The notes under the pieces: model-generated
Database searches by the model: none
What the model was told of the DNA's origin: nothing
The model's input: only the letters and a program-made list of their open reading frames with translations
Source: Mariprofundus sp. KV
GTDB taxonomy: Bacteria > Pseudomonadota > Zetaproteobacteria > Mariprofundales > Mariprofundaceae
Length of the DNA: 64,000 nt
Direction of reading: 5' to 3'
Assembly (NCBI RefSeq): GCF_013387475.1
Contig: NZ_VWNB01000006.1
Coordinates: 62,001-126,000, forward strand
Shown: positions 29,478 to 52,181 of the stretch, one piece after another
Numbering within the stretch: the first letter of the stretch is position 1
Layout of the letters: the number at the start of each line of letters is the position of its first letter
Program-made: the position numbers and the translations under genes

Positions 29478-29526
29478 AACGAAGGCCTGCCTCTCCCCCT
29501 CCCCCCCCCAGGCAGGCCTTTTCGTT
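29478..29526 (+). terminator. C/U-loop terminator hairpin A (downstream of 6S-like RNA A)
   Basis: An 11-bp perfect stem (aaggcctgcct with aggcaggcctt) encloses a 17-nt loop made only of C and T (29493-29509). It is followed by TTCGTT, which can also pair with AACGAA before the stem. The same stem occurs at 32339 and 52141, each with a pure or nearly pure C/T loop. It should end the 6S-like transcript or form its own small 3' RNA. Confidence 0.8.
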
Positions 29527-29590
29527 TCCCTCGTAAAACTTACACAGTCACATGCTCAAAAAAAGGAGAAGCAGAGCTCGCCTTTAACGA

Positions 29591-31987
29591 TCAGTTATCA
29601 GCCAATGCCTTGGCGAAGGCGGCCTCCAAAGCGCTCATTGGCTTTTTCTTGTTGCGTTCCAGCTTCTGTTTCACCTGATCTTTGGCCGTTTTAGGCTTGT
29701 TGGGGCGCGAAGCTTTCTGATGTGAGCTGTTCGAACGTGGCCGGTCACCCTCTTTGCCACCACGACCACGAGAAGTGCGACCACCTTCTGAACGGGGCTC
29801 TTTCTCAACTGCCCCCGGCTGATCATCCAGACGCATGGTCAGGGATATGCGCTTACGCTTGGCATCCACTTCCAGCACCTTCACCTGCACCACTGCACCG
29901 GTCTTGACCACCTTACGGGGATCATCGACAAACTGACTGGTCAGCGCGGAGATGTGGACAAGTCCGTCCTGATGCACACCGATATCAACAAATGCGCCGA
30001 AATTGGCAACGTTGGTCACCACTCCTTCCAGGATCATGCCTTCACGCAGATCGCGTATCTCTTTTACTCCAGACTTGAACTTCGCGGTCTTAAACTCAGG
30101 ACGAGGATCACGGCCAGGCTTCTCCAACTCCAGCAGAATATCGGAGACGGTGATCTGCCCAAATTTCTCATCCGCATAATCGGCTGCTTTCAGCTGCTGC
30201 AGAAACTCGCGGTTACCCATCAGTTCAGCCACCGCCCGGCCTGTTCGGGCCACGATCTTCTCCACCACAGGATAGGCCTCCGGATGCACCGCAGAGGCAT
30301 CCAGTGGATTATTACCCTTATTGATACGCAAAAATCCGGCTGCCTGCTCAAAGCTTTTCGGCCCGATGCCCTGCACTTTGAGAAGCTGCTGGCGATTGTT
30401 GAAAGCCCCCTTCTCATCACGGAAACGAACAATATTTTCTGCCATCGAACGACTCAAACCTGCCACATGGGTCAGCAGTGCTGCCGAGGCTGTATTGATA
30501 TCTACACCGACGTGGTTCACACAATCCTCAACTACGCCATCCAGACTGCGAGCCAACTGACTCTGGCTGACATCGTGCTGATACTGACCGACTCCAATCG
30601 ATTTCGGCTCAATCTTCACCAGTTCTGCCAGCGGATCCTGTAGCCTGCGGGCAATGGATACTGCCCCGCGCAGGGATACATCCAGATCAGGAAACTCCTG
30701 AGCTGCTGCTGCAGAGGCTGAATAGACCGATGCACCGGCTTCAGAAACCGTCACCTGGGTAAGATGCAGCTGCGCAAAGCGTTCGCGCAGCTCTTTCACC
30801 AGCGTCTCGGTTTCACGCGAGGCTGTACCGTTACCGATTGCAACCAGATCCACATGGTGTTTATCGGCCAGCACAGCCAGTGCCGCAATCGCCTCATCCC
30901 AGCGTTTGGCCGGGGCGTGCGGATAGATGGTCGTGGTATCAAGCACTCTGCCGGTAGGGTCGACCACTGCCACCTTCACACCGGTACGCAGACCCGGATC
31001 AAGCCCCATCGTGGCACGCTGTCCGGCCGGTGCAGCCAGCAGAAGATCGCGCAGGTTATTGGCAAACACCCTGATCGCCTCCTCCTCAGCCTTCTGGCGC
31101 AACTCGATAAACAGGTCGAGCTCAAGGCGCATCAACAGCTTCACCTTCCATGCCCAGCGCACGGTCTCCAGCAACCAGCTATCGGCAGCCCTGCCGCGAT
31201 CACTGATTCGGAAATGGCTGGCTATTGCAGATTCACAGTGACCGGCCGTTGTACGGCTTTCAGCCTCATGATCCTCAAGCATCTTCACGCTGAGAATGCC
31301 ATCGTTGCGCCCACGAAACAGCGCCAGCGCCCGATGCGATGGAATGCGTTTCAGCGGTTCACGATAATCAAAGTAATCGGCGAACTTGGCACCCTCCTCC
31401 TCTCTGCCGGTGATGACCGTGCTGACCAGCAGTGCATGTTTACTGAGGTAGTCACGCAAGCGACCGATCAGGTCGGCATCTTCACCGAACTTCTCCATCA
31501 GGATTTGACGTGCACCATCAAGGGCAAGCTCACCACTCTCGATGCTGTGCTCAAGATTGATGTATGACTCTGCCAGAGTCGTCGGATTCTGCGCAGGATC
31601 GGCCAGCAGTAATTCAGCGAGAGGCTCAAGACCCGCCTCTCGGGCGATCTGCGCCTTGGTGCGGCGCTTTGGCTTATAGGGAAGATAGAGATCCTCCAGA
31701 CGCGCCATGGTTTCAGCCGCCTTGATCACCTTCTCCAGCTCAGGGGTAAGCTTCTCCTGCTCTGAGATCGATTTGAGGATTGTAGCCCGGCGCGACTCCA
31801 GGTCGCGCAGGTAACGCAGGCGCTCTTCAAGATAACGCAGCTGGGTATCATCCAGCCCGCCGGTCACCTCTTTACGATAACGGGCAATAAACGGCACCGT
31901 TGCACCACCATCCAGAAGCCCGACAGCTGCCACAATCTGGCGCTCGTTGACGTTCAACTCTTTGGCGATCCGCAGTTCAATTCGCAT
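29591..31987 (-). CDS. tex: Tex family RNA-binding transcription accessory protein
   Basis: The 798-residue protein has the Tex layout. N-terminal helices contain [21 protein letters not shown] YqgF/RNase H-like domain (about 320-450) contains [17 protein letters not shown]. Helix-hairpin-helix repeats (about 500-600) include [17 protein letters not shown] and [22 protein letters not shown]-terminal S1 domain (about 645-715) reads [27 protein letters not shown] basic, low-complexity tail ([13 protein letters not shown], then Lys-rich) ends it. Tex binds nucleic acid and affects transcription and virulence genes in several pathogens. It lies between two loci of C/U-loop RNAs. Confidence 0.95.
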
Positions 31988-32103
31988 GGTTTCTCCCGAA
32001 ACAAAACAGTGTGTAGCAGCATCCTCGGCAACCCCGAAGTCGGCGGCAGTTTATAGCCAGTTTTTGAGAAAGAAACGGGCAATACTCTCTGCCACTTTTA
32101 GAT

Positions 32104-32137
32104 ATAATAAAAAGGCCCCGACATCAGTCGGGGCCTT
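32104..32137 (-). terminator. Rho-independent terminator of the locus C minus-strand sRNA
   Basis: On the minus strand AAGGCCCCGAC and GTCGGGGCCTT form an 11-bp perfect stem with a TGAT loop, followed by TTTTTATTAT. The plus strand lacks a T-run, so the transcript is minus-strand. Confidence 0.88.
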
Positions 32138-32225
32138 ACTATTCTCCATCAGGAGAACGAATGTCCGGAGAAATCGAGGGAGGGGAGGGAGGGTGATCGG
32201 CTCCGGACAACCGGGACAATGCGCA
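32104..32225 (-). ncRNA. Candidate minus-strand sRNA with C/U-rich loop (locus C)
   Basis: On the minus strand an 8-bp perfect stem GTCCGGAG/CTCCGGAC (32163-32170 with 32201-32208) exposes a 30-nt loop containing CCCUCCCUCCCCUCCC. A small hairpin (UUCUCC-UGAU-GGAGAA) follows, then a strong terminator. It is homologous to the locus A candidate: both share GUUGUCCGGAG and the loop type, but the downstream spacers differ. The opposite DNA strand in the loop reads GGGAGGGGAGGGAGGG, an ideal intramolecular G-quadruplex pattern. No open reading frame is present. Confidence 0.62.
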
Positions 32226-32289
32226 GTTGCGGGTTAGCCTCTTGTGAATCAACCATGAAGATTACTTCATCCGCTCAAAGAGGTTTAGT

Positions 32290-32317
32290 TTGCTTATCTA
32301 TATATACTATCTATACT
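32290..32317 (+). promoter_or_regulatory. Predicted sigma70 promoter of the short C/U-loop RNA
   Basis: TTGCTT (32290-32295) and TATACT (32312-32317) are separated by 16 bp. The predicted start at about 32324 lies only 15 nt before the C/U-loop hairpin, giving a transcript of roughly 55-60 nt. Confidence 0.5.
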
Positions 32318-32323
32318 AGTAAC

Positions 32324-32380
32324 ACCAACAAGTTACCGAAGGCCTGCCACCCTCCCCTCCCCCGGCAGGCCTTTTCGTTT
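32324..32380 (+). ncRNA. Candidate short RNA ending in C/U-loop hairpin (locus C)
   Basis: From the predicted start, a 15-nt leader (ACACCAACAAGUUACC-like) runs straight into the stem aaggcctgcc/ggcaggcctt (32339-32348 with 32364-32373). The 15-nt loop is ACCCUCCCCUCCCCC, followed by TTCGTTT. The stem is identical to those at 29482 and 52141. Unlike the other two loci there is no 6S-like body in front, so the hairpin with its leader would be the whole RNA. Confidence 0.5.
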
Positions 32381-32406
32381 ATCCTTCCTCAGTTATGCAC
32401 AGCCTG

Positions 32407-33774
32407 TCAGCGAAAGGTGGCTCGCCACTCACCAAAATCATCGCGGAAGACCCGGTAATCAACGACTGTATCAAAGGCAAGCTTCTGCTCATTGCCTTTT
32501 GCAACCTCCAGATCACAGACCCCTTTTACCTGCAACCTGTAGGGCCAGTATTCATGGGTTGTATTAAAGCGGCCCTGCCTGATGATGCGTATAGTGGAGA
32601 TCTTCACATCTTCAGCATAACCCTGATGCACATCTCTCAACCAGCTTAGCGGAATGCCATTATCCACACTCTTCTGAACCAGACCTCTGAGCTCGAAAAA
32701 CTCCGGCGCTATATATGATCTGGCCCTCGCAGCCATATCGCGGGCATGACGGAACCCGGGTACAAAACGGTCGGCCTTGTCAAAGGCAATAGCCGCCTGA
32801 TCAAACTCCTGACGATCCATCAAACGCTCACCCTCGCGGTAGGACCTGCGAGCATCCTCGCGATTGGCAAGGTCGGTGTAGTGAGTAGCCAGTTGCGTCG
32901 CATCGCGGAAATCGGGGACAAAGCCGAGTGCGGCGGTAAAAGCTGCGGCTGCATCCCTGTAGTGGTGTGCCTCTGCCAGCCGTTCACCCTGCAGATAGTT
33001 GGCAAGCGCATCCTCCTGGTCAGCGATTGCCATGTATTTCATGGACAACTGATGGGCATCTTTAAAACCGCGAATAAAGGCATCGGCTCTGGCAAAGGCA
33101 GTGGCGGCAGCGCGGTGGTCATGGGTGCGGATCGCCTGCCCCCCTTTTGCATACTCGATTCTCGCATCAGCCAGATCGGCAAGGTGTTTGGTCTCAGCGG
33201 CCAGTTTGATGGCATCCCTGTAACCACTCACAAAGGAGAGGGCCTGGTTAAACTCCTGTGTTGCCTGACGATAATCTCTGGCCGCCTGATAGCGCTTACC
33301 ATTGCCGTAATGGCCTGCAGCAGCCCGCTCATAAGCCTCATCACGCAGGGCTGCCACATCGTGCTGGCGAATTGCCAACAGCTGGTTCATCGCTGCTCGC
33401 CTGGCCCTGGTCACCTGCACTTTTTGTGCATAGGTGCGCATCGCATCCTGAATGCTCTGTACGGTACGATTCATGTCGATGATGCGATCATAACCATAAG
33501 CAGCCCGGTCCCAGTTGGCCGCAGCCCTGTAGTGGTCTATCTCTGTCAGCTTCTGCGCAAATGCATGTTCTGCAATGGCGGGAAACAGGGCGATGGCTTT
33601 ATGGTTGCCAATCTCTGCATGAAGCGAGTGTGAGGCCTGATCAAAAGCCGAGGCATAATCCCCCTTCTGCATACTCTGCTCGGCCAGCTTCTGATTTTTC
33701 TCTGATACCGATGCACAGCTGACGAGTAACAATAACGCCGCAAGGATCACCATAACCTGTTTCATCAACTGCAT
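32407..33774 (-). CDS. Lipoprotein with repeated helical motifs
   Basis: The product is a 455-residue predicted lipoprotein (lipobox LLVSC). After it, helical units recur, each ending in a GYRDA or GFRHA-type motif: SFVSGYRDAIKLA, AFIRGFKDAHQLS, GFVPDFRDATQLA and RFVPGFRHARDMA, at about 47-residue intervals. They look like TPR-related repeats. The C-terminal 110 residues are a different, unrecognised domain. I chose the ATG at 33774 because GGAGGT lies 7 nt upstream. Function is unknown; the repeats suggest protein binding in the periplasm. Confidence 0.72.
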   Translation of the reverse strand: MQLMKQVMVILAALLLLVSCASVSEKNQKLAEQSMQKGDYASAFDQASHSLHAEIGNHKAIALFPAIAEHAFAQKLTEIDHYRAAANWDRAAYGYDRIIDMNRTVQSIQDAMRTYAQKVQVTRARRAAMNQLLAIRQHDVAALRDEAYERAAAGHYGNGKRYQAARDYRQATQEFNQALSFVSGYRDAIKLAAETKHLADLADARIEYAKGGQAIRTHDHRAAATAFARADAFIRGFKDAHQLSMKYMAIADQEDALANYLQGERLAEAHHYRDAAAAFTAALGFVPDFRDATQLATHYTDLANREDARRSYREGERLMDRQEFDQAAIAFDKADRFVPGFRHARDMAARARSYIAPEFFELRGLVQKSVDNGIPLSWLRDVHQGYAEDVKISTIRIIRQGRFNTTHEYWPYRLQVKGVCDLEVAKGNEQKLAFDTVVDYRVFRDDFGEWRATFR

Positions 33775-33795
33775 CTGACCACCTCCAATCATCAC

Positions 33796-34067
33796 ATTGC
33801 CGACAATACATCAGAGTTTGATAAGCAACAGTCCATTTTTCACCCCCTTAAGCGTTGCCACTCCACCACGGAAAAACCATGGTGGGCCATTTTGCCACAC
33901 ATGTGTGTCACTTTGTTGACGAAAGGGCCTTGCACGCCACCATTGCCCGCATGAATACAAACGTTTCACGTAAGAAGATTGCACCTTTCGGTTGGCTAGT
34001 GGCCCGCCGAACTGCTTCCCTGTGTCCAAGCGTATTCTGATTCACTAAAGAAATTACTGCTGCTGAA
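33796..34067. other. Intergenic stretch without a recognised gene
   Basis: A 29-codon frame starting ATGAATACAAACG (33951-34040) is open but has no ribosome binding site. A TTGACG hexamer at 33916 lacks a good -10. The segment runs into a strong terminator at 34068 on the plus strand, so an unrecognised short transcript may end there. I can support nothing more. Confidence 0.3.
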
Positions 34068-34106
34068 ACGGCCACGGGTTTTGCTGAATCCGTGGCCGTT
34101 TTTTTT
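34068..34106 (+). terminator. Rho-independent terminator of an unidentified transcript
   Basis: acggccacgg and ccgtggccgt form a 10-bp perfect stem with a 12-nt loop, followed by T8. No gene on the plus strand precedes it within 5 kb, so it must end a small RNA or leader. Confidence 0.85.
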
Positions 34107-34126
34107 GGTCTGCATTTTAAAACTTT

Positions 34127-34230
34127 TACCACGAAGGCACAGAGACACAAAGTAAGAGCAGAGACTTAGATTGTTCTCTCATACATCTTCTTCATAGGGT
34201 CTCTTTGTGCCCTTTGTGTCTTCGTGGTTA
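34127..34230. repeat. Palindromic repeat of the CCACGAAGGCACAGAG type, copy 1
   Basis: The left arm (taccacgaaggcacagagac, continuing acaaag) at 34127-34152 pairs imperfectly with the right arm at 34203-34230 (ctttgtg...cttcgtggtta). The same family occurs at 43425-43549. The spacer of about 50 bp differs between copies. Such repeats are widespread in environmental bacteria and are non-coding. Confidence 0.75.
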
Positions 34231-34250
34231 TTCATAAACAGGAGAAAACC

Positions 34251-35144
34251 ATGTCTGTGCCATCGGCGTATTTAGGCGTCATTATCATCTGGAGCACCAC
34301 CCCGCTTGCCATTCTGTGGAGCAGCCAGGAGGTCGGATTTGTTTTCGGTGTTACCAGCCGAATGCTGATCGGCGCTGTGCTGGCACTCATTGTGGCAGCA
34401 CTACTGGGTTCCGGACTTAAATGGCACCGTCGCGCCCTGCTCGCCTACACTGCGGCGGCTATCGGTATCTATGGCGGCATGATCAGCGCCTATTGGTCTG
34501 CTCAATTTATTCCGACAGGCTGGATCTCTGTCATCTTCGGCCTGTCGCCGCTGTTTACTGCTTTGATGGCGCAGCTGTGGCTTAAAAGTGAGACGCTGAC
34601 CGCAACGAAAAGCATTGGCATGCTGACAGGGCTTATTGGCCTGGCGATGATCTTCGGCAGCAGCCTTGAGCTTAACGATCAAGCGGCCCTGGGTGTGGCT
34701 GGCATGTTGATCTCAGTAATCATCCATTGTGGTAGTGCAGTATGGATCAAGCGTATCAATGCAGAGCTGCCTGCCATTGTCATGACCAGTGGCGGACTGC
34801 TGTTTGCAGCACCACTGTTTCTGATGACATGGTTTTTTGCCGGGGCTGAACTGCCTGGTGAAATATCCATTCGCACATTCGCTGCGATCGGCTACCTTGC
34901 CCTGCTCGGTTCAGTATTGGGATTTGCTCTCTACTACTATGTACTGAGCAAGGTGGAGGCGACCAAAGTTGCGCTATTGACCCTGATCACACCCCTCAGT
35001 GCTCTGGGGCTGGGTCATCTGTTTAACAATGAGCCGATAACCCTGAACATCATCGCGGGAACAGTTTTGATTCTCTCTGGTCTTGCTGTCTTTGAATTCA
35101 GCAATCAGGCCGGACGCATCAGAGCCCGTTTCCTGCGTTACTAA
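34251..35144 (+). CDS. EamA/DMT family transporter
   Basis: The 297-residue protein has ten hydrophobic helices arranged as two EamA repeats. The first begins AYLGVIIIWSTTPLAI; the second includes GYLALLGSVLGFALYYYVLS and LITPLSALGLGHLFNNEPI. The family exports small metabolites such as amino acids; the substrate is unknown. I chose the ATG at 34251 because AGGAG lies 8 nt before it. The palindromic repeat just upstream probably lies in its leader. Confidence 0.85.
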   Translation: MSVPSAYLGVIIIWSTTPLAILWSSQEVGFVFGVTSRMLIGAVLALIVAALLGSGLKWHRRALLAYTAAAIGIYGGMISAYWSAQFIPTGWISVIFGLSPLFTALMAQLWLKSETLTATKSIGMLTGLIGLAMIFGSSLELNDQAALGVAGMLISVIIHCGSAVWIKRINAELPAIVMTSGGLLFAAPLFLMTWFFAGAELPGEISIRTFAAIGYLALLGSVLGFALYYYVLSKVEATKVALLTLITPLSALGLGHLFNNEPITLNIIAGTVLILSGLAVFEFSNQAGRIRARFLRY

Positions 35145-35178
35145 GTACAGTCAGGGCTCTGCAGTGTCAGAGCCCTGA

Positions 35179-37257
35179 TCACCCATCACGAGCCGCAATC
35201 ATCTCGCCTACGGCTGCTGCTAATGCAGAGATCTGGAATGGCTTATTCATCACGCAACTCTGTTGAGTATCTTCAGCCAGCAGACGCCTCTGTTCAGCCC
35301 CTCCCTCATAACCACTGATATAGATTGCCGGCATATTCTGATCTATAGCCCTGACCGCATCAATAAAGTCGATGCCACCCATTTTCGGCATCACAATATC
35401 GGTAATAATCAGTGCAATCTCCTTTGCCCTGGATTGAAACAGCTGTAGCGCCTCTTCGCCATCGCCAGCCTCAATCACCTGATAGCCATGGCTCTCCAGC
35501 ACCTCGCGCAGGGTATGACGCAGGGATGCCTCATCATCGACCAATAGAATAAGTCCACCTATTGATGCAGCAGTAGAAACATGTTCTTCCAACACATCAC
35601 GCTGCCCCTCACTTTCACTCAGTGGCAGATAGATTGAAAAGGTGGTACTCCACCCCTCATCGGCTCCAGCCTCAATCACGCCACCATGTCCACTGACGGC
35701 ACCATAGACCATCGCCAGACCTAACCCCGTACCTTCGCCAACCCCTTTGGTGGTATAAAAGGGCTCAAATATTTTGGATGCCTGCTCCGGATCTATGCCC
35801 ACCCCGTTATCTGAAACGCTGATTCTGGCAAAATGATCTCCCTGCAGGTCAGGATGCCGTTTACGAAAAATATCATTGGCATAAAAACGACTGAGTGTGC
35901 AGCGAGTCTTTGGCTTCTGAACGTTCGCCACGGCATCACAGGCATTACCCACCAGATTCATCATCACCTGTTGAAACTGTGTTGCATTCCCATAGATAAA
36001 CAGTTCGTCATCACAGAAATCTGTTTCATGTACAATGTTTTCAGGAATAATCGATTTCGCCAGTCGGTACCCATCCCGCATAAATTTATTAAGCGAGAAG
36101 ATACGTTTCTCAAGCTGATCCTTTCTGGCAAAGGTAAGCAGCTGCTGAATCATCTCCGAGCCCTGATCGGTAAGTGCATCCACACTGCTTAATCGCTCAG
36201 CACACCTCTTCTGATCATCCATTTCGCCTCTTGCCAGATAGGTGTGACCTTTAACTGCCGCCAGAATATTATTGAAATCATGGGCGATACCGCCAACGAG
36301 CGTCCCGAGTGCCTCCATCTTTTGAGACTGCAACAGCTGCTCTTCGAGCTCCTGACGCTCCGTCATATCCTGCTGCACACTAACATAGGCAGCAATCTCA
36401 CCCTGATCGTTAAGAATGGGTGAAACTGTCATCGCCACCGGATAAAAGCTGCCATCCTTACGGCGATCTATCAGCGTGCCGCGCCAGGTCTGACCCGATA
36501 CAATCGTTTGCCATAACTGCTGATAGACCGATGCATCCTGAGCTGAACTTTTCAGCATCGAAGGCTTTTTACCCATCAACTCCTGTGCCGAATAACCTGA
36601 TACCCGCTCCAGTGCCGGATTCACATACTCGATAATCCCATTGCGATCGGTCAGCAAGATCAGCTCATCAGCATGCTCAACAACCTGAGACAGCTTCTCC
36701 AGCAACCGCTGCGATTTCACCTGACTGGTGACATTGATGATGGTGGCGGTATAGGCGTGGCAGCCCAGCGATGCGTCAAAATGCCCCTGGTGATTCCAGT
36801 GGAACTCCACCTTGGATTTTTCGCCTGTTTTGGAGTTAAAAGATCCCGATACTGCCTGAGTTAATCTACCACTCTCTACCAGTTGTGCGAATGACGTCTG
36901 CAGTGAGCTTCGACAAAGATCACTCGAGCAGAACTTCCACAGGTGGGAACCCAGCAACTCATCTTTACTACATCCAAGGATGTCGCATATCTTTTGATTG
37001 GCAAACAGTAATTGGCCTGAGCTGTTGCATTGAACAACGCCATAGGGCATCGCATCGAGAATGGAACGGCACTGGGCAAGACTCGTTTGCACACGATCTT
37101 TGGCCAGGCCAATCAGGAACCCGGCTACGCCACCAACCATCATAGGCACCAGAAATCTGAATATCTCATCCTCATGCCCTGTGCCATGCAGAGCAATCCG
37201 GCCAAACAATGGCACTATCGTCATGCCCACAAGGGCGTATTTTATTCGTTTCTGCAT
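35179..37257 (-). CDS. Hybrid sensor histidine kinase with two PAS domains and receiver
   Basis: The product has about 692 residues. One or two N-terminal hydrophobic helices are followed by PAS 1 (about 75-180, SILDAMPYGVVQCNSSGQL) and PAS 2 (about 195-315, LILLTDRNGIIEYVNPALE). The histidine kinase core has the phosphoacceptor in GGIAHDFNNILAAVKGHTYL and ATPase motifs DNGVGIDPEQASKIFEPFYT and GTGLGLAMVYG. The C-terminal receiver (about 570-685) has its Asp in LIITDIVMPKMGG. This is the HDFNN subtype of phosphorelay kinases. The ATG at 37257 has GGGGA upstream; a GTG at 37290 is possible. No partner regulator is adjacent. Confidence 0.9.
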   Translation of the reverse strand: MQKRIKYALVGMTIVPLFGRIALHGTGHEDEIFRFLVPMMVGGVAGFLIGLAKDRVQTSLAQCRSILDAMPYGVVQCNSSGQLLFANQKICDILGCSKDELLGSHLWKFCSSDLCRSSLQTSFAQLVESGRLTQAVSGSFNSKTGEKSKVEFHWNHQGHFDASLGCHAYTATIINVTSQVKSQRLLEKLSQVVEHADELILLTDRNGIIEYVNPALERVSGYSAQELMGKKPSMLKSSAQDASVYQQLWQTIVSGQTWRGTLIDRRKDGSFYPVAMTVSPILNDQGEIAAYVSVQQDMTERQELEEQLLQSQKMEALGTLVGGIAHDFNNILAAVKGHTYLARGEMDDQKRCAERLSSVDALTDQGSEMIQQLLTFARKDQLEKRIFSLNKFMRDGYRLAKSIIPENIVHETDFCDDELFIYGNATQFQQVMMNLVGNACDAVANVQKPKTRCTLSRFYANDIFRKRHPDLQGDHFARISVSDNGVGIDPEQASKIFEPFYTTKGVGEGTGLGLAMVYGAVSGHGGVIEAGADEGWSTTFSIYLPLSESEGQRDVLEEHVSTAASIGGLILLVDDEASLRHTLREVLESHGYQVIEAGDGEEALQLFQSRAKEIALIITDIVMPKMGGIDFIDAVRAIDQNMPAIYISGYEGGAEQRRLLAEDTQQSCVMNKPFQISALAAAVGEMIAARDG

Positions 37258-37421
37258 CCAGCAATTCCCCGGGATGCTATTCCTTAACACTCCCGTATAA
37301 CTTCACATAAACATATTCTAAATTGATATCATATTGGCACATTACATCTAACCACCATACAGACAACCGTCACCAGCCGCGGCATATTGTCGCAGACCTC
37401 ACTCGATTACAGCATCAAAGC

Positions 37422-37835
37422 TTACTGTGCGTGTCTGCCAATCAACTGACGATAGGCCAGAATAAATATCACCGTCCAGATGGTGGAACGCAGTGTCATT
37501 GCTGCTACTGTGCGCATCTCATAGGCACCATCAGCAAAGATATGCAGGCCAAAAGCGGCAAAAACCAACAATGTGGCAACTGCAATCACCAGAGCGAGAC
37601 CCGCAGCCCATGGCTTGCGCAGGGCGAGACCGACACCCGCAATCAGATAGACAAACCCAGCAGTAAAGTTAAACCAGAGCACAAAGGGTACATAGTTGCC
37701 TGCTGCAACCCTGTAACTCTCATCACCGAACAGTACTTGCCCGCCTGATTTGATGGTTAAGATGCCAAAGATGATGGCTACGGCGGCGGCAAGCCAGATG
37801 ATCACTTTACTGGTCATGGATAGACTCTGATTCAT
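37422..37835 (-). CDS. Four-helix inner-membrane protein, unknown function
   Basis: This 137-residue protein has four hydrophobic helices: IIWLAAAVAIIFGIL, FTAGFVYLIAGVGLAL, LVIAVATLLVFAAFG and TIWTVIFILAYRQL. I do not recognise a family. It starts 6 nt after the DUF2892 stop, making it the last gene of the MarR-cytochrome-DUF2892 operon, so it may act in the same membrane process. The start could also be the Met at 37817. Confidence 0.65.
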   Translation of the reverse strand: MNQSLSMTSKVIIWLAAAVAIIFGILTIKSGGQVLFGDESYRVAAGNYVPFVLWFNFTAGFVYLIAGVGLALRKPWAAGLALVIAVATLLVFAAFGLHIFADGAYEMRTVAAMTLRSTIWTVIFILAYRQLIGRHAQ

Positions 37836-37840
37836 ATGAA

Positions 37841-38074: not shown

Positions 38075-38089
38075 TATATTCTCCTTTCT

Positions 38090-38566: not shown

Positions 38567-38588
38567 TATATTCTCCTTGTCTCTTTGA

Positions 38589-41052: not shown

Positions 41053-41074
41053 AAGATATTCCTTTATCAGTTGA

Positions 41075-41237: not shown

Positions 41238-41239
41238 TT

Positions 41240-43417: not shown

Positions 43418-43424
43418 GCAGTCA

Positions 43425-43549: not shown

Positions 43550-43552
43550 AAG

Positions 43553-44686: not shown

Positions 44687-44968
44687 TCAGGGCCTTCTGT
44701 CGGGGTCTCGTCGGTTATCAAATACAGCATGCACGACAAGCGCTTGCTGCTCGATGCTATAAAATATTGAAAAAGGGAATCGTCTGATCACGCGTCCGCG
44801 AATATCGCCATAGAGAATGCGAAATTTCGCCGGGTTTTCTAATATGGAATGGATGCTGTTTTCAACGCAATCCAAGAACTCAAATCCAAGTCCACGCCTT
44901 TGTCTTTCGTACCAGATAAACGCCAGTTCCAGATCTCGTCTGGCTCTACTGGTATAGCGCAGTTTCAC
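44687..44968 (-). CDS. ParE/RelE-family toxin
   Basis: The 93-residue protein has the ParE/RelE fold pattern: RYTSRARRDLELAFIWYERQ, LGFEFLDCVENSIHSILENP, then VIRRFPFSIFYSIE and VVHAVFDNRRDP. Its start overlaps the antitoxin stop by 4 bp. Toxins of this group poison gyrase or cleave mRNA on ribosomes; which applies here is not decidable. The stop codon abuts the end of nspC, the two genes being convergent. Confidence 0.88.
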   Translation of the reverse strand: MKLRYTSRARRDLELAFIWYERQRRGLGFEFLDCVENSIHSILENPAKFRILYGDIRGRVIRRFPFSIFYSIEQQALVVHAVFDNRRDPDRRP

Positions 44969-45192
44969 TTGTAGCTGGCTCTTAGTTCCTCATGAACTGA
45001 TTGCCAATCGTGCAGCTCCTGCTCACCGTCCTTGAATGACTGATAACGTTTGTCTAGCTCCTGCTTCTGCCACTCCGGCATCGGAAGTTCATCATTACCC
45101 TTGGCAATCGAGTCCCAGATATCTTCCACAAGCAGCAACTTATCCGACAACGCCAAAGCACTAATCTCGTCTCGAATCTCTTCAGCCCGCAT
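44965..45192 (-). CDS. Antitoxin of the TIGR02574 addiction-module family
   Basis: The 75-residue protein begins RAEEIRDEISALALSDKLLL and continues VEDIWDSIA, then MPEWQKQELDKRYQ. This is the characteristic pattern of the addiction-module component partnered with ParE-like toxins. AGGTG lies 6 nt before the ATG at 45192; a GTG at 45198 is less likely. It binds and neutralises the toxin encoded next and probably represses the operon. Confidence 0.88.
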   Translation of the reverse strand: MRAEEIRDEISALALSDKLLLVEDIWDSIAKGNDELPMPEWQKQELDKRYQSFKDGEQELHDWQSVHEELRASYK

Positions 45193-45275
45193 AAACACAC
45201 CTCGTTACTGAAGCAGTATAGGCTGATAGGGATGAGATGAACAACAGTTACTGATTTTGAAACTGCTAAGCAGAG

Positions 45276-45455
45276 CGCCGCATATAGATGGTGAAATCAT
45301 CAGTCAGGTAATCACTGCGCAGCTGTCAATCAGGTGTGATGGTTCTGCAAAACTCCATGATCTCGTCCGGTTCAAAAGCAATCAGTTGACCAACCAGCGA
45401 GGCATCAAACCCTTGGCTATCGGGCATATTAAACGACACACCTTTGCGACATAGC
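45276..45455 (-). pseudogene. Broken partial copy of the methyltransferase gene 3' end
   Basis: This segment aligns over about 180 bp with the 3' end of the methyltransferase gene at 46449-46630, in the same orientation, with clearly more than 80 percent identity by eye. On the minus strand it would encode FEPDEIMEFCRTITPD, then an in-frame TGA where the intact gene has TGT, then QLRSDYLTDDFTIYMRR. The N-terminal two thirds are missing. The two copies form a direct repeat flanking the GGDEF gene. Confidence 0.85.
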
Positions 45456-45514
45456 TTAGGAGACCGCCATAACCACCCATAGGATTAGCGCTTATGTTTA
45501 TCGGCATCCGCCTT

Positions 45515-45529
45515 GCTATAATGGGCGGG
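45515..45529 (+). promoter_or_regulatory. Extended -10 promoter placing transcription start at the GGDEF GTG
   Basis: TGCTATAAT (45514-45522 region) is an extended -10 with a perfect TATAAT at 45517-45522. Counting 7 nt gives +1 at 45529, the G of the predicted GTG start. The message would then be leaderless. The same TGCTATAAT occurs in the repeat at 1254. Confidence 0.5.
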
Positions 45530-46434
45530 TGATTTTAAATCCGGGCAAAAACCTACAAATTCCGACCTTGATTCAGCGCTCTCTTAGGGTACGAATCGCG
45601 CTCATTCTGCTTGCCGCATTCTCAATCGGAGCAGCAGCTCTGATTCTCCTTATTGATGGCCGGAATCAAACGCTCATCACGCTCTTTATTCTTCTGCTTG
45701 TGATACTCACTATCTGGCTCTGCCTGCATCGGCTGGTGATCAGCCCGATCCTTCGCTTACAAAAACTGGCACGCAAAATTGGCACTGATGAAGACCGCAG
45801 TGAGGTGGAGTTCTCTCCACGTCGCGATGAGATCGGCAGCATTGGCACCACCCTTCTGGCCACTGAAAAAGAGAGTGAGCGACAGCGTCAGGAGCTCCTT
45901 GCGCTGGCCAACAGAATGGATAAAGAGCGCAGGCATGACCCGCTCACCAAACTCCACAACCGTCGCCATCTCTATCTGGAAGGCCCAAAGCAGTTCTCCA
46001 TGGCTCACCGCTTAAACTACGCCATCTCGGTGATGATGATTGATCTGGATCATTTTAAGCAGGTAAACGACAGCTACGGCCATGCTGCAGGTGACACCGT
46101 ACTGATCGAGGTTGCTGCAACCCTTCTAAAACATTGCCGCACCTACGATATTCTTATCCGCTTCGGCGGTGAAGAGTTCACACTGGTGCTGGTGAACTGT
46201 GACCATGCACAGTCACTACAGGCGGCTGAACGCATACGCCAAGATATCGCCTCCCTTAAGATATCCCACGAACAGCACACCTCAATTCCCATCACCAGCA
46301 GCATTGGCGTTTGCAGCGCTAAAGGCATGGACATGGAGAGGATGATTATCATTGCTGATGAGTGTGTGTATAAGGCCAAGGAGTCCGGCCGCAACTGTGT
46401 TCGTCATGCCGAAATTGCTACACAACCGGATTAA
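45529..46434 (+). CDS. Membrane-bound diguanylate cyclase (GGDEF)
   Basis: The 301-residue protein has two N-terminal transmembrane helices (IALILLAAFSIGAAALILLI and TLFILLLVILTIWLCL) with almost no periplasmic loop. A HAMP-like linker spans about 65-120. The GGDEF domain (about 130-290) carries MIDLDHFKQVNDSYGHAAGD and the active site RFGGEEF. An inhibitory RxxD site (RTYD) lies just before it, so product inhibition is likely. It makes c-di-GMP. There is no ribosome binding site before the GTG, consistent with a leaderless message. It lies between the intact and broken methyltransferase copies. Confidence 0.88.
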   Translation: MILNPGKNLQIPTLIQRSLRVRIALILLAAFSIGAAALILLIDGRNQTLITLFILLLVILTIWLCLHRLVISPILRLQKLARKIGTDEDRSEVEFSPRRDEIGSIGTTLLATEKESERQRQELLALANRMDKERRHDPLTKLHNRRHLYLEGPKQFSMAHRLNYAISVMMIDLDHFKQVNDSYGHAAGDTVLIEVAATLLKHCRTYDILIRFGGEEFTLVLVNCDHAQSLQAAERIRQDIASLKISHEQHTSIPITSSIGVCSAKGMDMERMIIIADECVYKAKESGRNCVRHAEIATQPD

Positions 46435-46442
46435 TTGAAATT

Positions 46443-47102
46443 TTAGACGCGGCGCATGTAGATGGTGAAATCATCGGTCAGGTAATCACTGCGCAGCTGA
46501 CAATCAGGTGTAATCGTTGTGCAGAACTCCATGATCTCGTCCGGTTCAAAAGCAATCAGCTGGCCAACCAGCGAGGCATCAAGCCCCAGACTGTCGAGCA
46601 TATTAAACGCCACACCCTTGCGACATAACCTGAACATGCGCGTTATCACGCGCCTTGCATAATCACCGTTATCACCCAGATCCCAGTTCAATGTCCCTGA
46701 GAGAAAGACCCAATCAAAGGATTGCAGCGGCCAGTCGAAATCAAAGATCTCACCCTGCAGCAGATTCAGTTCCGGATTAAGTTCAATGGCTCTGCCCAGA
46801 ATATCGGGCGAGAGATCAATGCCGGTATACGCCACGGCGACATCACGCCCTTTCAGCCAGCTGTAGAGATCAGCAAATCCACAACCGACATCGAGCAATG
46901 AATCCCCGCCAGACACTCCAATCTCAGCCAGCACTTTGAAGCGGACTTTCTGCGTCCCGCGCGAACCCCAGTGGAGTGACTCAGGAGAGTAACCAAACTC
47001 AGAGTAACTATGCTCATGCCGCTGGATCAGCCGCCTCCGCTGCACCCCATCCATCCCCTGGTAGACCTCACTTTCCCCATAGGGTACAAATATCCGCCTC
47101 AT
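46443..47102 (-). CDS. Class I SAM-dependent methyltransferase
   Basis: The product has about 219 residues. Motif I is SLLDVGCGFADLYSWL, followed by YTGIDLSPDILGRA (acidic end of strand 2) and DFDWPLQSFDWVFLSGTLNW (motif II). The substrate is unknown. The frame begins at a GTG at 47111; the ATG at 47102 gives MRRIFVPYGESEV. A truncated copy of its 3' end lies 1.2 kb downstream at 45276-45455. It is convergent with the GGDEF gene, with 8 bp between stops. Confidence 0.8.
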   Translation of the reverse strand: MRRIFVPYGESEVYQGMDGVQRRRLIQRHEHSYSEFGYSPESLHWGSRGTQKVRFKVLAEIGVSGGDSLLDVGCGFADLYSWLKGRDVAVAYTGIDLSPDILGRAIELNPELNLLQGEIFDFDWPLQSFDWVFLSGTLNWDLGDNGDYARRVITRMFRLCRKGVAFNMLDSLGLDASLVGQLIAFEPDEIMEFCTTITPDCQLRSDYLTDDFTIYMRRV

Positions 47103-47188
47103 GGCCGCCACTCTATGCTGCGTTATGAAAGGAAGGTAGCCGCTTCATTTTACTTCACATTTCACGTTACAAAACAGATCATGCAGCC

Positions 47189-47569
47189 ATGAAACAGCGC
47201 ATACGATTGGCTACTCACAGCTCTCCATTGGCACTAAAATATGCCCAAAAAGTTGCTACGAACATCAAAGCAATTAATCCGCATATTCAGGTGGAGATGG
47301 TTAGGGTATCAACCAAGTCAGACACCTACTACTATGAATCACCATCAGAGATCGGCGGAAAATGCCTCTATCTAAACGAAGTTATTCAGGCGGTTCGCGA
47401 TGGCCATGCCGATATCGCATCGCATGTCATTGAGGAGACCCCGCACAGCAAAATCGACTGGCCCAGAGGCTGGCTCAGCGTCAAGTGTAAAGAGGATGAA
47501 GGCGAAACCATTCACGTCTTCGCTGGGCCAAAACAGATCCCCGAAAGGTTCTGGAGAAGTAAGACCTGA
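47189..47569 (+). CDS. Truncated, divergent porphobilinogen deaminase-like protein (domain 1 only)
   Basis: The 126-residue product resembles only the first domain of HemC, which is normally about 310 residues. RIRLATHSSPLALKYAQKVA replaces the usual RIATR-SPLAL, and IGGKCLYLNEVIQAVRDGHADIASHVIEE parallels IGGKGLFVKE..DGRADIAVHSMKD. In that stretch the Lys-Asp pair, whose Asp is the catalytic residue in HemC, reads Glu-Glu. Domains 2 and 3 and the cofactor Cys are absent. It is therefore unlikely to be an active deaminase; a decaying paralogue or a repurposed binding domain is possible. It precedes hemF by 80 bp. Confidence 0.7.
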   Translation: MKQRIRLATHSSPLALKYAQKVATNIKAINPHIQVEMVRVSTKSDTYYYESPSEIGGKCLYLNEVIQAVRDGHADIASHVIEETPHSKIDWPRGWLSVKCKEDEGETIHVFAGPKQIPERFWRSKT

Positions 47570-47649
47570 TCCAAGTCTGGTATCCCCATTGTTGAAGCAG
47601 AAGGGCATCACCTCCATAGTTCAGCCCCATTCTACACAGAGGTAATTTG

Positions 47650-48687
47650 ATGAAACGAATTCCAGCAAAATCGACAAGTGCGACAAAAGGGCATGAACTG
47701 GTTTCATCACTGCAGAGCCGATTTGTGGCCGGGCTTGAGAAACTGGCAGGTGAACTTGGCAGTGCGCAGCGCTTCTCACCTGTGGAGTGGTTCCGCGATG
47801 AGGGCGTGCATGGCGGTGGTATCCGCTATGAGACGGCCGATGGTGATCTCTTTGGTCGCGGATCAGTCAATGTGTCGCAGGTGCATTATGATGATAACCC
47901 GCAGAAGAAACTGGGTTCGGCCTCGGCGATCTCCACCATCATCCATCCGGTCAATGCGCTGGCGCCTTCGGTACACATCCATATCAGCTGGACCGAGATG
48001 AAGGATGGCAGCGGCTACTGGCGCATGATGGCCGATCTGAATCCATCCAATGATAATGTGGCAGACAAGAACACCTTCCTGAGTGCCCTGCAAGAGGCTG
48101 CTCCAACGCAGTTTGCAGAGGCAGAGCAGCAGGGGGATCGCTACTTCTATATTCCGGCCCTGAACCGTCATCGCGGCATCGCCCACTTCTATCTGGAGAA
48201 CTACGCTACCGACAATGCCGAAGCTGATTACCAGCTGGCCAGAGCTGTCGGTGAAGCGGCCATCGACACCTATCTCGATATTCTCGGTAGAACATTGAAG
48301 AGCGGAGCGGTGGCAACAGATGCCGAGAAAGCGGCACAGCTCGCCTACCACACCCTCTACCTCTTCCAGGTACTAACACTCGATCGCGGCACCACCACAG
48401 GCCTTCTGGTACACGATCAGAACGATGTCGGCATCATGGGATCGATCCCTGCTTATGTGGATCGTGACCTGCTCAGATCATGGGTGGATCGTATGCAGCC
48501 GCCTCAGCATCAGCTGCTCAATGCGCTGGTTGCAGCCCTGCCCGATAGCACTCCGGCACTGGTGGATACCGAAGTAAAACGCAGGCTCGCTGCTGTGGTA
48601 CGTAACCACTACCGCGCCCATCCTGAGGCGATCGATATGCAGGCCAGCGGCAACACCGTTCCGCCAACGGTAAGAAACCATAGTTAA
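47650..48687 (+). CDS. hemF: Coproporphyrinogen III oxidase, oxygen-dependent type
   Basis: The 345-residue protein shows HemF landmarks: the Gly/Arg-rich VEWFRDEGVHGGGIRYETAD, VNVSQVHYDD, HPVNALAPSVHIHISWTE and MADLNPS, then RGIAHFYLENY and GLLVHDQNDVGIMGSIP near the end. It is a divergent branch compared with the E. coli protein, with a longer C-terminal part. It oxidises coproporphyrinogen III to protoporphyrinogen IX using O2, which suits an aerobic or microaerobic bacterium. GAGGT lies 8 nt before the ATG at 47650. Confidence 0.82.
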   Translation: MKRIPAKSTSATKGHELVSSLQSRFVAGLEKLAGELGSAQRFSPVEWFRDEGVHGGGIRYETADGDLFGRGSVNVSQVHYDDNPQKKLGSASAISTIIHPVNALAPSVHIHISWTEMKDGSGYWRMMADLNPSNDNVADKNTFLSALQEAAPTQFAEAEQQGDRYFYIPALNRHRGIAHFYLENYATDNAEADYQLARAVGEAAIDTYLDILGRTLKSGAVATDAEKAAQLAYHTLYLFQVLTLDRGTTTGLLVHDQNDVGIMGSIPAYVDRDLLRSWVDRMQPPQHQLLNALVAALPDSTPALVDTEVKRRLAAVVRNHYRAHPEAIDMQASGNTVPPTVRNHS

Positions 48688-48777
48688 TATCAGGTGATCT
48701 AACCCGCCATAGCCTCTGGCATCAGCCACAAAAAAGGCAGATGATAGCGCTGCAAACCGCAGGCAAAAGGAGTGAAT

Positions 48778-49698
48778 ATGCAACTGGCAATGGTGGGAAT
48801 GGGCCGCATGGGCGGCAATATGGCGACACGACTGGCACTGGCCGGTCATCGTGTCACTGCATTCGATATTGATCTCAAGACAGCAGAGGCCGTTGCAGCC
48901 GGCCACCATGAGATCACTCCGGTAGCCGACTTTGCAACACTGATCTCTACCCTGCCTGCGCCGCGCAGTATCTGGCTGATGGTGCCGCATCAGGTTGTTG
49001 ATACAACGATCACAGCACTTCTCGAGGCCGGGCTTGAGGCGGGCGATCTGATTATCGATGGCGGCAACTCCAACTACAAAGAGGGGCAACAGCGAGCCGC
49101 CATGCTTGAGGAGCATGGCATCGGTTTTGCCGACTGCGGCACCTCCGGTGGCGTCTGGGGACTGAAGAACGGTTATAGCCTGATGATCGGCGGCAGTGAT
49201 GCGGCCATTGCACGCATCGCACCGGCATTGACTGCACTGGCCGCCAACAGTGGTAAAGGCTGGGCGCATGTCGGCCCTGTTGGAGCAGGCCACTTCGTCA
49301 AGATGGTCCACAACGGCATTGAGTACGGCATGATGCAGGCCTTCGCTGAAGGCTTTGAGCTGATGCAGGCTAAATCAGAGTTCGATCTTGATATGCAGCA
49401 GATCGCCCAGGTCTGGCAGAAGGGCTCGGTGGTGAGTTCATGGCTGCTCGATCTGACAGCCGATGCACTGCAGCAGGATGGTGATCTCAGCAGCCTCTCC
49501 GACTGGATGGATGACTCCGGCGAAGGGCGCTGGACGGTCAACGAGTCGATCGACCTCGGCATTCCGACACCGGTGCTGACACTGGCGCTGCAGATGCGCT
49601 TTCGCAGCCGCCAGGAGAACGCCTTTGCAGGCAAAGTTGTTAATGCCATGCGCGCCGGATTCGGCGGCCACCCTATCAAACCGGCAGAGAAATCATGA
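48778..49698 (+). CDS. gnd: 6-phosphogluconate dehydrogenase, short (GndA/YqeC-like) form
   Basis: At 306 residues this is the short form rather than the 470-residue enzyme. The dinucleotide site is LAMVGMGRMGGNMATRLALA, and the catalytic region includes DCGTSGGVWGLKNGY and VGAGHFVKMVHNGIEYGMMQ. Short forms usually prefer NAD. It oxidatively decarboxylates 6-phosphogluconate to ribulose 5-phosphate. AAGGAG lies 6 nt before the ATG at 48778. Its stop overlaps the zwf start by 4 bp. Confidence 0.9.
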   Translation: MQLAMVGMGRMGGNMATRLALAGHRVTAFDIDLKTAEAVAAGHHEITPVADFATLISTLPAPRSIWLMVPHQVVDTTITALLEAGLEAGDLIIDGGNSNYKEGQQRAAMLEEHGIGFADCGTSGGVWGLKNGYSLMIGGSDAAIARIAPALTALAANSGKGWAHVGPVGAGHFVKMVHNGIEYGMMQAFAEGFELMQAKSEFDLDMQQIAQVWQKGSVVSSWLLDLTADALQQDGDLSSLSDWMDDSGEGRWTVNESIDLGIPTPVLTLALQMRFRSRQENAFAGKVVNAMRAGFGGHPIKPAEKS

Positions 49699-51215
49699 GC
49701 AGCGCATCAGTTCCACAACCTGAGCCCTGCAACATTGTTATCTTCGGTGCCTCCGGGGATCTGACCAAACGCAAACTGCTGCCTGCACTGGCACGCATGC
49801 ACCACTGGAATCTGATTGCCCCGAACTCACGCATCACAGGTATCGTACGTAATCATGAGTGGGATATTGATCACTGGCGCAGCTATGTGCATGAGGCGCT
49901 GCAGCAGTTTCGCCCCGACTGCCTGAGTGATGCATCAGCCTGGCAATCGATCAACGACATGCTGGCACTGACGGTTGGTGATCTCTCCGATGCCCAGACC
50001 TATGAACGGCTGCGCGAAACCCTGATCAGCGCCGATGGTAAAACCAATGTCCTCTTCTACCTCGCCATTCCTCCTGAGTGGTATGAGCGCGTCGCCTCCA
50101 ACCTCAATGCGGCAGGACTACTGGATGAGAGCAACGGCTTTCGCCGCATCGTCATCGAGAAACCGTTCGGCAGCGATCTCGCCTCGGCCCGTGAACTCAA
50201 CCGCACGCTGCGCGAACATATGAAAGAGCGGCAGATCTACCGTATCGACCACTACCTAGGCAAAGAGGGGGTACAGAATCTGATGGTGTTCCGTTTCGCC
50301 AACACCGTGTTTGAGCCGCTCTGGAACCGCAACTACATCGATCATGTGCAGATCTCCGTATCCGAGAGTCTGGGGGTGGAGTATCGGGCCGGATATTATG
50401 AGAAAGCCGGTGCACTGGTTGATATGATTCAGAGCCATCTGATTCAGGTGATGACACTGGTGGCGATGGAGTCGCCGGTCTCTCTCGATGGTGATGCCGT
50501 ACGTGATGAGAAGGTGAAGGTGCTCAAGGCGGTACGCCCGATTCCGGCTGACCGGGTCAGTGAATTTGCCGTCCGTGCCCAGTACGCTGGCGGTACGGTT
50601 GAAGGCAAACGTATCCCGGCCTACCGCGATGAGCCCGGCGTCGATCCCGACTCCACGATTGAGACCTTTGCCGCCATCAAACTCTATATCGATAACTGGC
50701 GCTGGCAGGATGTGCCGTTCCTGCTGCGCACCGGTAAGCGACTGCCCAACCGTGTCTCTGAGATCGCCATACGCTTTAAACGGCCACCGATGAATCTCTT
50801 CTCCCAGAGTAGTCGTCAGCTGCCACAAAATGAGCTTATCTTCCGCCTGCATCCCGATGAGGGGATGGTCTATCTGCTCAATGCCAAGCTTCCCGGCCTC
50901 AACGACCAGCTGCGTGAGCTGGCACTGGATGCCCCCTATGCCGTGGCCGGTGCCGACTCTCCGGAGGCCTATGAGACACTGCTGCACGATGCCCTGCTCG
51001 GCCAGAATGCGCTCTTCTCCCGCGCCGATGAGGTTGAGGAGTCCTGGCGCATCGTCACCCCGGTGATGGATGCCTGGAAGCAGAAACAGAGCATCCGCTT
51101 CTATGAGGCGGGCAGCTGGGATATCCCTGAAATCGAAACCATGATGCAGGGGTGTGTGGGCTGCTGGCGCGATCTCTCGGAGCTGCACCAGCATGGATAT
51201 TCGAAAAGCGCCTGA
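49695..51215 (+). CDS. zwf: Glucose-6-phosphate 1-dehydrogenase
   Basis: The protein has 506 residues. The NADP site is IFGASGDLTKRKLLPALARM, and the active-site signature with the catalytic His is YRIDHYLGKEGVQNLM. EKPFG and WRWQDVPFLLRTGKRLP are also characteristic. It oxidises glucose 6-phosphate to 6-phosphogluconolactone. It overlaps gnd by 4 bp at its start and pgl by 23 bp at its end, making a compact oxidative pentose phosphate operon. Confidence 0.95.
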   Translation: MSSASVPQPEPCNIVIFGASGDLTKRKLLPALARMHHWNLIAPNSRITGIVRNHEWDIDHWRSYVHEALQQFRPDCLSDASAWQSINDMLALTVGDLSDAQTYERLRETLISADGKTNVLFYLAIPPEWYERVASNLNAAGLLDESNGFRRIVIEKPFGSDLASARELNRTLREHMKERQIYRIDHYLGKEGVQNLMVFRFANTVFEPLWNRNYIDHVQISVSESLGVEYRAGYYEKAGALVDMIQSHLIQVMTLVAMESPVSLDGDAVRDEKVKVLKAVRPIPADRVSEFAVRAQYAGGTVEGKRIPAYRDEPGVDPDSTIETFAAIKLYIDNWRWQDVPFLLRTGKRLPNRVSEIAIRFKRPPMNLFSQSSRQLPQNELIFRLHPDEGMVYLLNAKLPGLNDQLRELALDAPYAVAGADSPEAYETLLHDALLGQNALFSRADEVEESWRIVTPVMDAWKQKQSIRFYEAGSWDIPEIETMMQGCVGCWRDLSELHQHGYSKSA

Positions 51216-51900
51216 TCCGGGCGCGCTTGCCCGGCAGGCGGCTGCATATATTGCCGCCCGAATCACGGCGGTATTAAATCAGCGTGAGCTCTGCCATCTG
51301 GCACTGGCTGGCGGCAACACCCCCGGAGCCACCTATGCCCTGCTGCACGATATGGCGCTGCCGTGGTCACGTCTGCACTTCTGGTTTGGTGATGAGCGCT
51401 GCCTGCCGAGCGGCGATGCGCAACGTAACGACACGATGGTCAAAGCGGTGCTGCTGGCAGGTCTGCCGCTCTCAGCCTCGCAACTGCATAATATTGCGGC
51501 AGAACTCGGCCCGGAAGCCGCTGCCCGGCAATACTCTCAAGCGCTGAGTCACATCGAGCGACTGGATATTGTGCTGCTCGGACTTGGTGAAGATGGTCAT
51601 ACCGCCAGCCTCTTTCCTGACAACCCGGCTCTGGCCATGCAGACCCGGGCAGTCGCTGTTCACCATGCCCCCAAACCACCATCGCAGCGGGTTTCACTGA
51701 GCATGAAGAGCATCAGAGATGCCGGTGAACGTGTTGTCATAGCGGCAGGCGAGGATAAGCGCGAGGCTCTGGCTCGTATCCTTGCCGGTGAAAAGCTGCC
51801 AGCCGCTATGGTTGGTTCGGCAATATGGTTCGTTGATGAGGCAGCTATTGCCGGTCTGTGCAGCGACGCTGTTATTCAGGAGCGGCCGGAAAACGGGTAG
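51193..51900 (+). CDS. pgl: 6-phosphogluconolactonase
   Basis: The 235-residue protein has the DevB/Pgl motifs: LALAGGNTPGATYALL, LHFWFGDERCLPSGDAQRND and LGLGEDGHTASLFPDNP. It hydrolyses 6-phosphogluconolactone between Zwf and Gnd. I chose the ATG at 51193, inside the zwf end, because the family starts about there and GGAG lies 10 nt upstream. The longer frame to 51154 is a zwf shadow. A 6S-like RNA begins 57 bp downstream. Confidence 0.92.
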   Translation: MDIRKAPDPGALARQAAAYIAARITAVLNQRELCHLALAGGNTPGATYALLHDMALPWSRLHFWFGDERCLPSGDAQRNDTMVKAVLLAGLPLSASQLHNIAAELGPEAAARQYSQALSHIERLDIVLLGLGEDGHTASLFPDNPALAMQTRAVAVHHAPKPPSQRVSLSMKSIRDAGERVVIAAGEDKREALARILAGEKLPAAMVGSAIWFVDEAAIAGLCSDAVIQERPENG

Positions 51901-51929
51901 AGGCAACGCTGCAAGCGGCATCGCCTGCT

Positions 51930-51946
51930 TTGGCACTGTTTATGCT
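51930..51946 (+). promoter_or_regulatory. Sigma54-like promoter upstream of 6S-like RNA B
   Basis: TTGGCACTGTTTATGCT has GG (51932-51933) and GC (51944-51945) separated by exactly 10 nt. TGGCAC is a full -24 match; the -12 block is ATGCT against TTGCT. The arrangement matches that before 6S-like RNA A. Confidence 0.5.
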
Positions 51947-51956
51947 CATAGATTAT

Positions 51957-52130
51957 TACTAGTTCGTTGCACCGGCGTGGTGGTTATTAACTCTGGGCCG
52001 ATGCCTACTGAACGGGAGCTTACAGATCCAGATTGTGTGCATCCCCGAACCGGGATACCTGATATCGGATTGCGGCACCCACCTTTTGCGAGGGTTCAGT
52101 ATTAAGGTCATCACGCCGTGCAACGACAAA
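51957..52130 (+). ncRNA. ssrS: 6S-like regulatory RNA, copy B
   Basis: The RNA is homologous to copy A at 29290. The closing stem is cgttgcaccggcgtg (51965-51979) with cacgccgtgcaacg (52112-52125), different in sequence from copy A but still paired. The 3' part has CCCACCUUUUGCGAGGGUUCA-like sequence, as in proteobacterial 6S RNA. The region GGGCCGAUGCCUACUGAACG is nearly identical to copy A, and a hairpin ccccgaaccgggat-like lies at the distal end. It sits directly after pgl and is followed by a C/U-loop hairpin. Two 6S RNAs in one genome are known in some bacteria. Confidence 0.75.
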
Positions 52131-52139
52131 GAGTCCTCC

Positions 52140-52181
52140 GAAGGCCTGCCGCCCCCCCCTCCCCCGGCAGGCCTTTTCGTC
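52140..52181 (+). terminator. C/U-loop terminator hairpin B (downstream of 6S-like RNA B)
   Basis: The stem aaggcctgcc/ggcaggcctt (52141-52150 with 52166-52175) is identical to those at 29482 and 32339. The 15-nt loop is GCCCCCCCCUCCCCC, followed by TTCGT. It ends the 6S-like transcript or forms a separate 3' RNA. Confidence 0.8.

Follow-up and report, generated by a model that had tools for sequence, protein, structure and literature searches.

Extra 6S RNA genes and stand-alone small RNAs with pyrimidine-rich hairpin loops suggest a class-wide regulatory RNA system in Zetaproteobacteria

The window analyzed here is a stretch of 64,000 nucleotides (nt) from the 2.53-Mb genome of Mariprofundus sp. 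KV (contig NZ_VWNB01000006.1, positions 62,001 to 126,000), which is labelled G000 in our survey of Zetaproteobacteria. It contains three forward-strand hairpins with one common stem and C/U-rich loops, two genes for 6S RNA (SsrS) and, on the minus strand, two copies of a stand-alone small RNA with a loop of the same kind (table 1). All three hairpins have the form AAGGCCTGCC-loop-GGCAGGCCTT, each followed by TTCGT. A preliminary description of this DNA had reported this common stem and tail, and we recovered the three hairpins where it had placed them; their predicted folds were more stable than 200 of 200 shuffled sequences in each case. The exact stem occurs at three sites in the genome, all of them within the window, and at none in a reversed control. 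A census of 1344 strong hairpins of the same genome (loops of 9–34 nt) gave an overall loop composition equal to that of random genomic segments. No genome-wide excess of C/U loops was found among them, the signal being confined to the families described here, and nearly all of the long C-rich loops of the census were clustered in a 23-kb stretch of the window.

The sequences upstream of hairpins 1 and 3 were found to be 6S RNA genes. Both follow a 158-nt element whose two copies are 73% identical and which recurs on C24 and C27; the Rfam model of 6S RNA (RF00013, gathering cut-off 46.4 bits) identified four 6S genes in this genome, all of which matched model positions 1–187 (38.8–60.5 bits, E 2.3e-6 to 1.5e-11). 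The C27 copy passes the cut-off with 60.5 bits and is flanked by a zapA-like gene and a 5-formyltetrahydrofolate cyclo-ligase gene (identities from translations), which is the usual place of ssrS; this is the canonical copy. The other three, namely the C24 copy (44.7 bits) and paralogs B (43.1 bits) and A (38.8 bits) of the window, score just below the cut-off, and therefore a gathering-threshold Rfam scan of the window reported nothing. Related extra 6S copies in other species exceed it, for example with 58.8, 56.9, and 51.9 bits. Because hairpins 1 and 3 lie on the strand of the 6S genes and start ~10–20 nt past their 3′ ends, we read them as the intrinsic terminators of these extra 6S RNA genes; the predicted transcripts, terminator included, are roughly 210–230 nt long. 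In the class as a whole, 6S RNA was detected in 74 of 78 Zetaproteobacteria, with as many as five copies per genome in the genus of the studied strain. Two loci, L216 (G046) and L222 (G050), carry tandem extra 6S genes, up to three within ~5.3 kb, with a C/U-loop terminator on each. In the window, the longest open reading frame of a GDPD gene (52035–52949) overlaps paralog B and hairpin 3; the gene itself probably starts near 52239.

The exact stem was searched, with any loop permitted, in the 78 Zetaproteobacteria genomes and in 221 other Pseudomonadota. Forty-two of the hairpins found in the class adjoin a 6S copy, nearly all of them ~9–27 nt past its 3′ end on the same strand. Every one of these 42 loops is pyrimidine-rich on the 6S strand (lowest fraction 0.76), and 41 are distinct; C makes up 68% of their bases, T 24%, A 6%, and G 2%. 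The motif CCTCC is present in 33 of them and CCTCCC in 32; when every loop was shuffled, the counts were 20.1 ± 2.8 and 14.7 ± 2.7, respectively. In 25 copies whose full sequence was read, mean pyrimidine content was 89% in the loops versus 48% in the spacers directly upstream, and the stem holds its pairing across G-C to A-U changes. Eighteen exact-stem sites do not adjoin a 6S copy, and these include ordinary loops as well as copies resembling site 2 in four genomes. Among the 221 other Pseudomonadota, the stem occurred 11 times, never with a pyrimidine-rich loop. These comparisons indicate that the loops stay C/U while their sequence drifts, across species and genera, and that the loop is under selection, as the preliminary description had proposed. 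The same stems with random loops, which by its account would have reduced the sites to plain terminators if present in related genomes, were not seen among the 42 6S-linked hairpins. Random repetition or copying was rejected in view of the divergence of the loops and of the ordinary loops that the stem carries outside the class.

The three sites had been treated as one family of free-standing RNAs of 50–60 nt, and this has to be revised. Sites 1 and 3 are terminators of much longer predicted transcripts, whereas an RF00013 search found no 6S body or homologue upstream of hairpin 2, which is probably a minimal RNA of ~50 nt, much as the preliminary description had envisaged. It is divergent from a minus-strand small RNA, and the same divergent arrangement was found in G054 and G046.

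The minus-strand RNAs, which the preliminary description overlooked, are the clearer stand-alone C/U-loop small RNAs of these intergenic regions, and they belong to no known family. Both copies in the window consist of a TGTCCGGAG/CTCCGGACA-type stem with a long C/U loop, followed by a GGCCCC terminator. A covariance model (R1) finds five good copies in the genome, namely the two in the window and C24:137139-137220, C24:189740-189819, and C28:95177-95261; one C24 small RNA adjoins the C24 6S paralog. The structure is supported by paired changes at three pairs; over seven sequences, 99% of the cells are paired. R1 matches were obtained in most Zetaproteobacteria genera tested, and the best match outside the class reached 40.4 bits. 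In stem-only searches, TCCGGAG stems carry C/U loops genus-wide, with CCTCCC in 24 of 24 of these loops, and TCTGGCGC stems in four genera have loops that drift and are always C/U-rich; related C/U loops of drifting sequence occur in genera g1, g6, g9, and g13. Copy 2 lies upstream of tex, as do its orthologues in M. ferrooxydans PV-1 and others; the nearest Tex proteins are zetaproteobacterial (84% in the metagenome-assembled genome CG1_02_53_45 and 77% in Mariprofundus ferrooxydans PV-1). A conserved and often palindromic block (ATGAA-N6-TTCAT; 32210–32255, minus strand, and orthologues) precedes the tex-region small RNAs by 40–90 nt and is perhaps a promoter or a regulator site.

Table 1. 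Positions of the RNA genes, hairpins, and promoter-like motifs within the window
Feature	Position	Strand	Details
Sigma-54-like motif of 6S paralog A	29264..29278	+	TGGCATCATATATGC, -24/-12 spacing; 35 nt upstream of 6S match
6S RNA (SsrS) paralog A	29299..29464	+	RF00013 full length, 38.8 bits, E 1.6e-4 to 2.3e-6 by search space
Hairpin 1, C/U-loop terminator of paralog A	29482..29520	+	loop TCTCCCCCTCCCCCCCCCA, 19 nt (17 after one extra pair), then TTTTCGTTT; -22.2 kcal/mol, z -5.6 vs shuffles
Hairpin 2, stand-alone C/U-loop terminator hairpin without 6S body	32339..32373	+	loop ACCCTCCCCTCCCCC, 15 nt; -19.9 kcal/mol, z -4.7
Putative sigma-70-like promoter of site-2 RNA, divergent from small RNA copy 2	32290..32317	+	TTGCTT-16-TATACT, as read from the sequence
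Sigma-54-like motif of 6S paralog B	51931..51945	+	TGGCACTGTTTATGC
6S RNA paralog B	51961..52130	+	RF00013 full length, 43.1 bits
Hairpin 3, C/U-loop terminator of paralog B	52141..52175	+	loop GCCCCCCCCTCCCCC, 15 nt (13 after one extra pair); -21.6 kcal/mol, z -4.7
C/U-loop small RNA copy 1	29056..29165	-	hairpin 29165-29120, loop TCGGTTTTCCCTCCCCTCCCTCCTAACC; terminator 29086-29063, loop also C/U-rich; R1 89.4 bits
C/U-loop small RNA copy 2, upstream of tex	32107..32209	-	hairpin 32209-32162, loop CCGATCACCCTCCCTCCCCTCCCTCGATTT; terminator 32137-32112; R1 104.5 bits

The extra 6S genes also tend to share a promoter-like motif. TGGC-N7-NTGC was found 30–37 nt upstream of the 6S match in 16 of the 30 extra 6S genes that were read, while ~0.5 would be expected from the genomic rate, and an RpoN-box protein is encoded in the genome under study. 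The motif resembles a sigma-54 promoter; alternatively, its TTGGCA may serve as the -35 element of a sigma-70 promoter. Elsewhere in the window, a 73-nt repeat (85% identity; 1193–1265 and 28826–28898) containing AACAGTCTTAGTAAATCA and a -10 element similar to TGCTATAATGGT resembles a promoter or small-RNA start that has been duplicated, and direct repeats of 179 nt (90% identical) lie at 45275–45453 and 46449–46627, spaced 1174 nt.

What the C/U loops do can be explained in several ways. The hairpins could serve only as intrinsic terminators for 6S genes that were duplicated, in which case the C/U loop, itself without function, was inherited from a founder and drifts by slippage within C tracts. 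A short U tract does follow the hairpins, they stand directly downstream of 6S genes, duplicated copies have common ancestry, and C tracts are prone to slippage. Nevertheless, 41 of the 42 linked loops are distinct yet remain ~92% pyrimidine beside spacers of 48%, CCTCC is retained above its level in shuffled loops, other 6S copies terminate with ordinary tetraloops, and unrelated small RNAs of the same genomes have such loops on other stems, so that we consider this explanation unlikely. Alternatively, the loops might bind or titrate a protein that reads unpaired pyrimidines, such as Rho, ribosomal protein S1, or a cold-shock or KH-type protein, rather than an mRNA. Rho favours YC dinucleotides, and a composition that is kept more strictly than the exact sequence is what a reader of YC or C-rich RNA would lead one to expect; against this, CCTCCC exceeds what composition predicts in the 6S-linked loops and is found in every TCCGGAG-stem loop, and we regard protein binding as rather improbable. 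A G-quadruplex in the G-rich template strand that halts RNA polymerase and aids termination is very improbable and was rejected, since four C tracts of at least three, present in 11 of 24 TCCGGAG-stem loops, occur in only 2 of 42 6S-linked loops.

We favour pairing of the loops with mRNA, for which there are known parallels. In Helicobacter pylori, the RepG loop binds a G-repeat of the tlpB leader by pairing (PMC8295292), NfeR1 is Hfq-independent, and RNAs of the ar14/cuckoo family have C/U loops with an anti-Shine-Dalgarno sequence (PMC10746234, PMC3927594). No Hfq (PF17209) was detected above the cut-off in the studied genome or in the 78 Zetaproteobacteria, where positive controls were detected and G006 gave one weak match. 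An Hfq-free mode of pairing would therefore be needed, as for RepG and NfeR1; to our knowledge, Helicobacter lacks Hfq. The resemblance to RepG, already suggested in the preliminary description, is strengthened by this class-wide result: a C/U-rich loop in a terminator hairpin and a host without detectable Hfq are both seen here, although in our case the loop is joined to a 6S body or a second hairpin and is multi-copy, and no sequence relation is claimed. The other suggested parallel, the cuckoo RNAs (NfeR1, CcsR), extends to C/U loops with an anti-Shine-Dalgarno sequence but not to membership, which was rejected because the ar14 scores, 22.5 bits for the minus-strand RNA and 24.9 bits in the vicinity of site 3, are far below the Rfam cut-off of 58.8 bits. 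Membership in BSnc120 was rejected for a score likewise far below cut-off (31.2 bits, the match being mostly terminator). The cuckoo RNAs have three hairpins with an identical, ultraconserved CCUCCUCCC and variable stems, while the RNAs described here have one or two hairpins with conserved stems and drifting loops; the window loops lack CCTCCTCCC, and an identical CCUCCUCCC in three hairpin loops was not encountered. Compared with known 6S RNA, including the second copies of Bacillus (6S-1/6S-2), the zetaproteobacterial genes agree in the full-length model match and, in the genome under study, in the position of one of the four copies at the usual ssrS place, and differ in that a genome may hold up to five copies, the extra ones being free-standing and often equipped with the sigma-54-like motif and a C/U-loop terminator.

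In folds of the full-length transcripts, the loop is predicted to be mostly unpaired (mean 0.88). Ribosome-binding windows were computed to be better pairing partners of the loops than coding windows; loop 2, for example, pairs at -14 kcal/mol or lower with 188 of 2024 of the former and 52 of 2024 of the latter. G-rich 7-mers complementary to the loop are present in ~90 ribosome-binding windows. Several observations weigh against the favoured reading. The window pairings are weak evidence and show only that targets exist, because ribosome-binding sites are purine-rich and would be complementary to a C/U-rich loop of any sequence, and because the gene starts were chosen partly by their Shine-Dalgarno match. 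The mean overlap of the loops with the exact 16S anti-Shine-Dalgarno sequence did not surpass that of shuffled loops (4.86 versus 4.73 ± 0.13), and exact anti-Shine-Dalgarno sequence longer than CCUCC was not enriched over shuffled loops; a search of this genome for the 16S GGATCACCTCC gave one site, apparently no rRNA 3′ end, and the strain's own anti-Shine-Dalgarno sequence was hence not read. In addition, the C24 6S paralog and its orthologues have an ordinary terminator loop, two linked hairpins have loops of 6 nt (CTCATC), and the 6S-linked copies share descent, so that counts such as 42 of 42 overstate their independence. Taking all of this together, we assign a probability of about 0.6 to the view that these hairpins are part of a set of pyrimidine-loop regulatory RNAs that spans the Zetaproteobacteria. 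Most likely, they represent antisense RNAs acting on Shine-Dalgarno sequences by pairing and independently of Hfq, and some are fused to 6S RNA.

A mechanism may be outlined on this basis. The 6S paralogs and the small RNAs, whose transcription is predicted from sequence, would expose C/U loops. By pairing to G-rich Shine-Dalgarno sequences (GGAGG/GGGAGG), these loops could shut off translation in an Hfq-free manner, which is the mode of action of RepG and the ar14 RNAs. The 6S bodies would bind sigma-70 RNA polymerase like ordinary 6S RNA, and the promoter-like motif would place the extra genes under sigma-54 control, such that a 6S paralog, often behind such a promoter, could reduce both transcription and translation of growth genes. 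More tentatively, and with a probability that we put below even, these might be two-part RNAs, in which a 6S body expressed from a sigma-54-type promoter sequesters the sigma-70 polymerase and a 3′ pyrimidine-loop hairpin blocks ribosome-binding sites, and which might form, together with the stand-alone C/U-loop RNAs, a network that works without Hfq and depresses transcription and translation jointly.

In the open-access literature that was searched, we found no small-RNA work on these marine iron oxidizers and no paper linking 6S RNA with Zetaproteobacteria, and the sole Mariprofundus paper that mentions small RNAs concerns saliva integrons; an earlier description in subscription journals may exist. 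Our results suggest a C/U-loop regulatory RNA system that is undescribed and class-wide. Annotation overlooks the 6S copies involved, three of four being below the Rfam cut-off in this genome. If the proposed pairing is true, 6S RNA would be joined to an antisense element, and the question would arise of how targets are found without Hfq when the composition of the seed loop, rather than its exact sequence, is kept. The marine iron oxidizers of this class, in which Hfq was not detected, would then possess a class-wide anti-Shine-Dalgarno RNA system.

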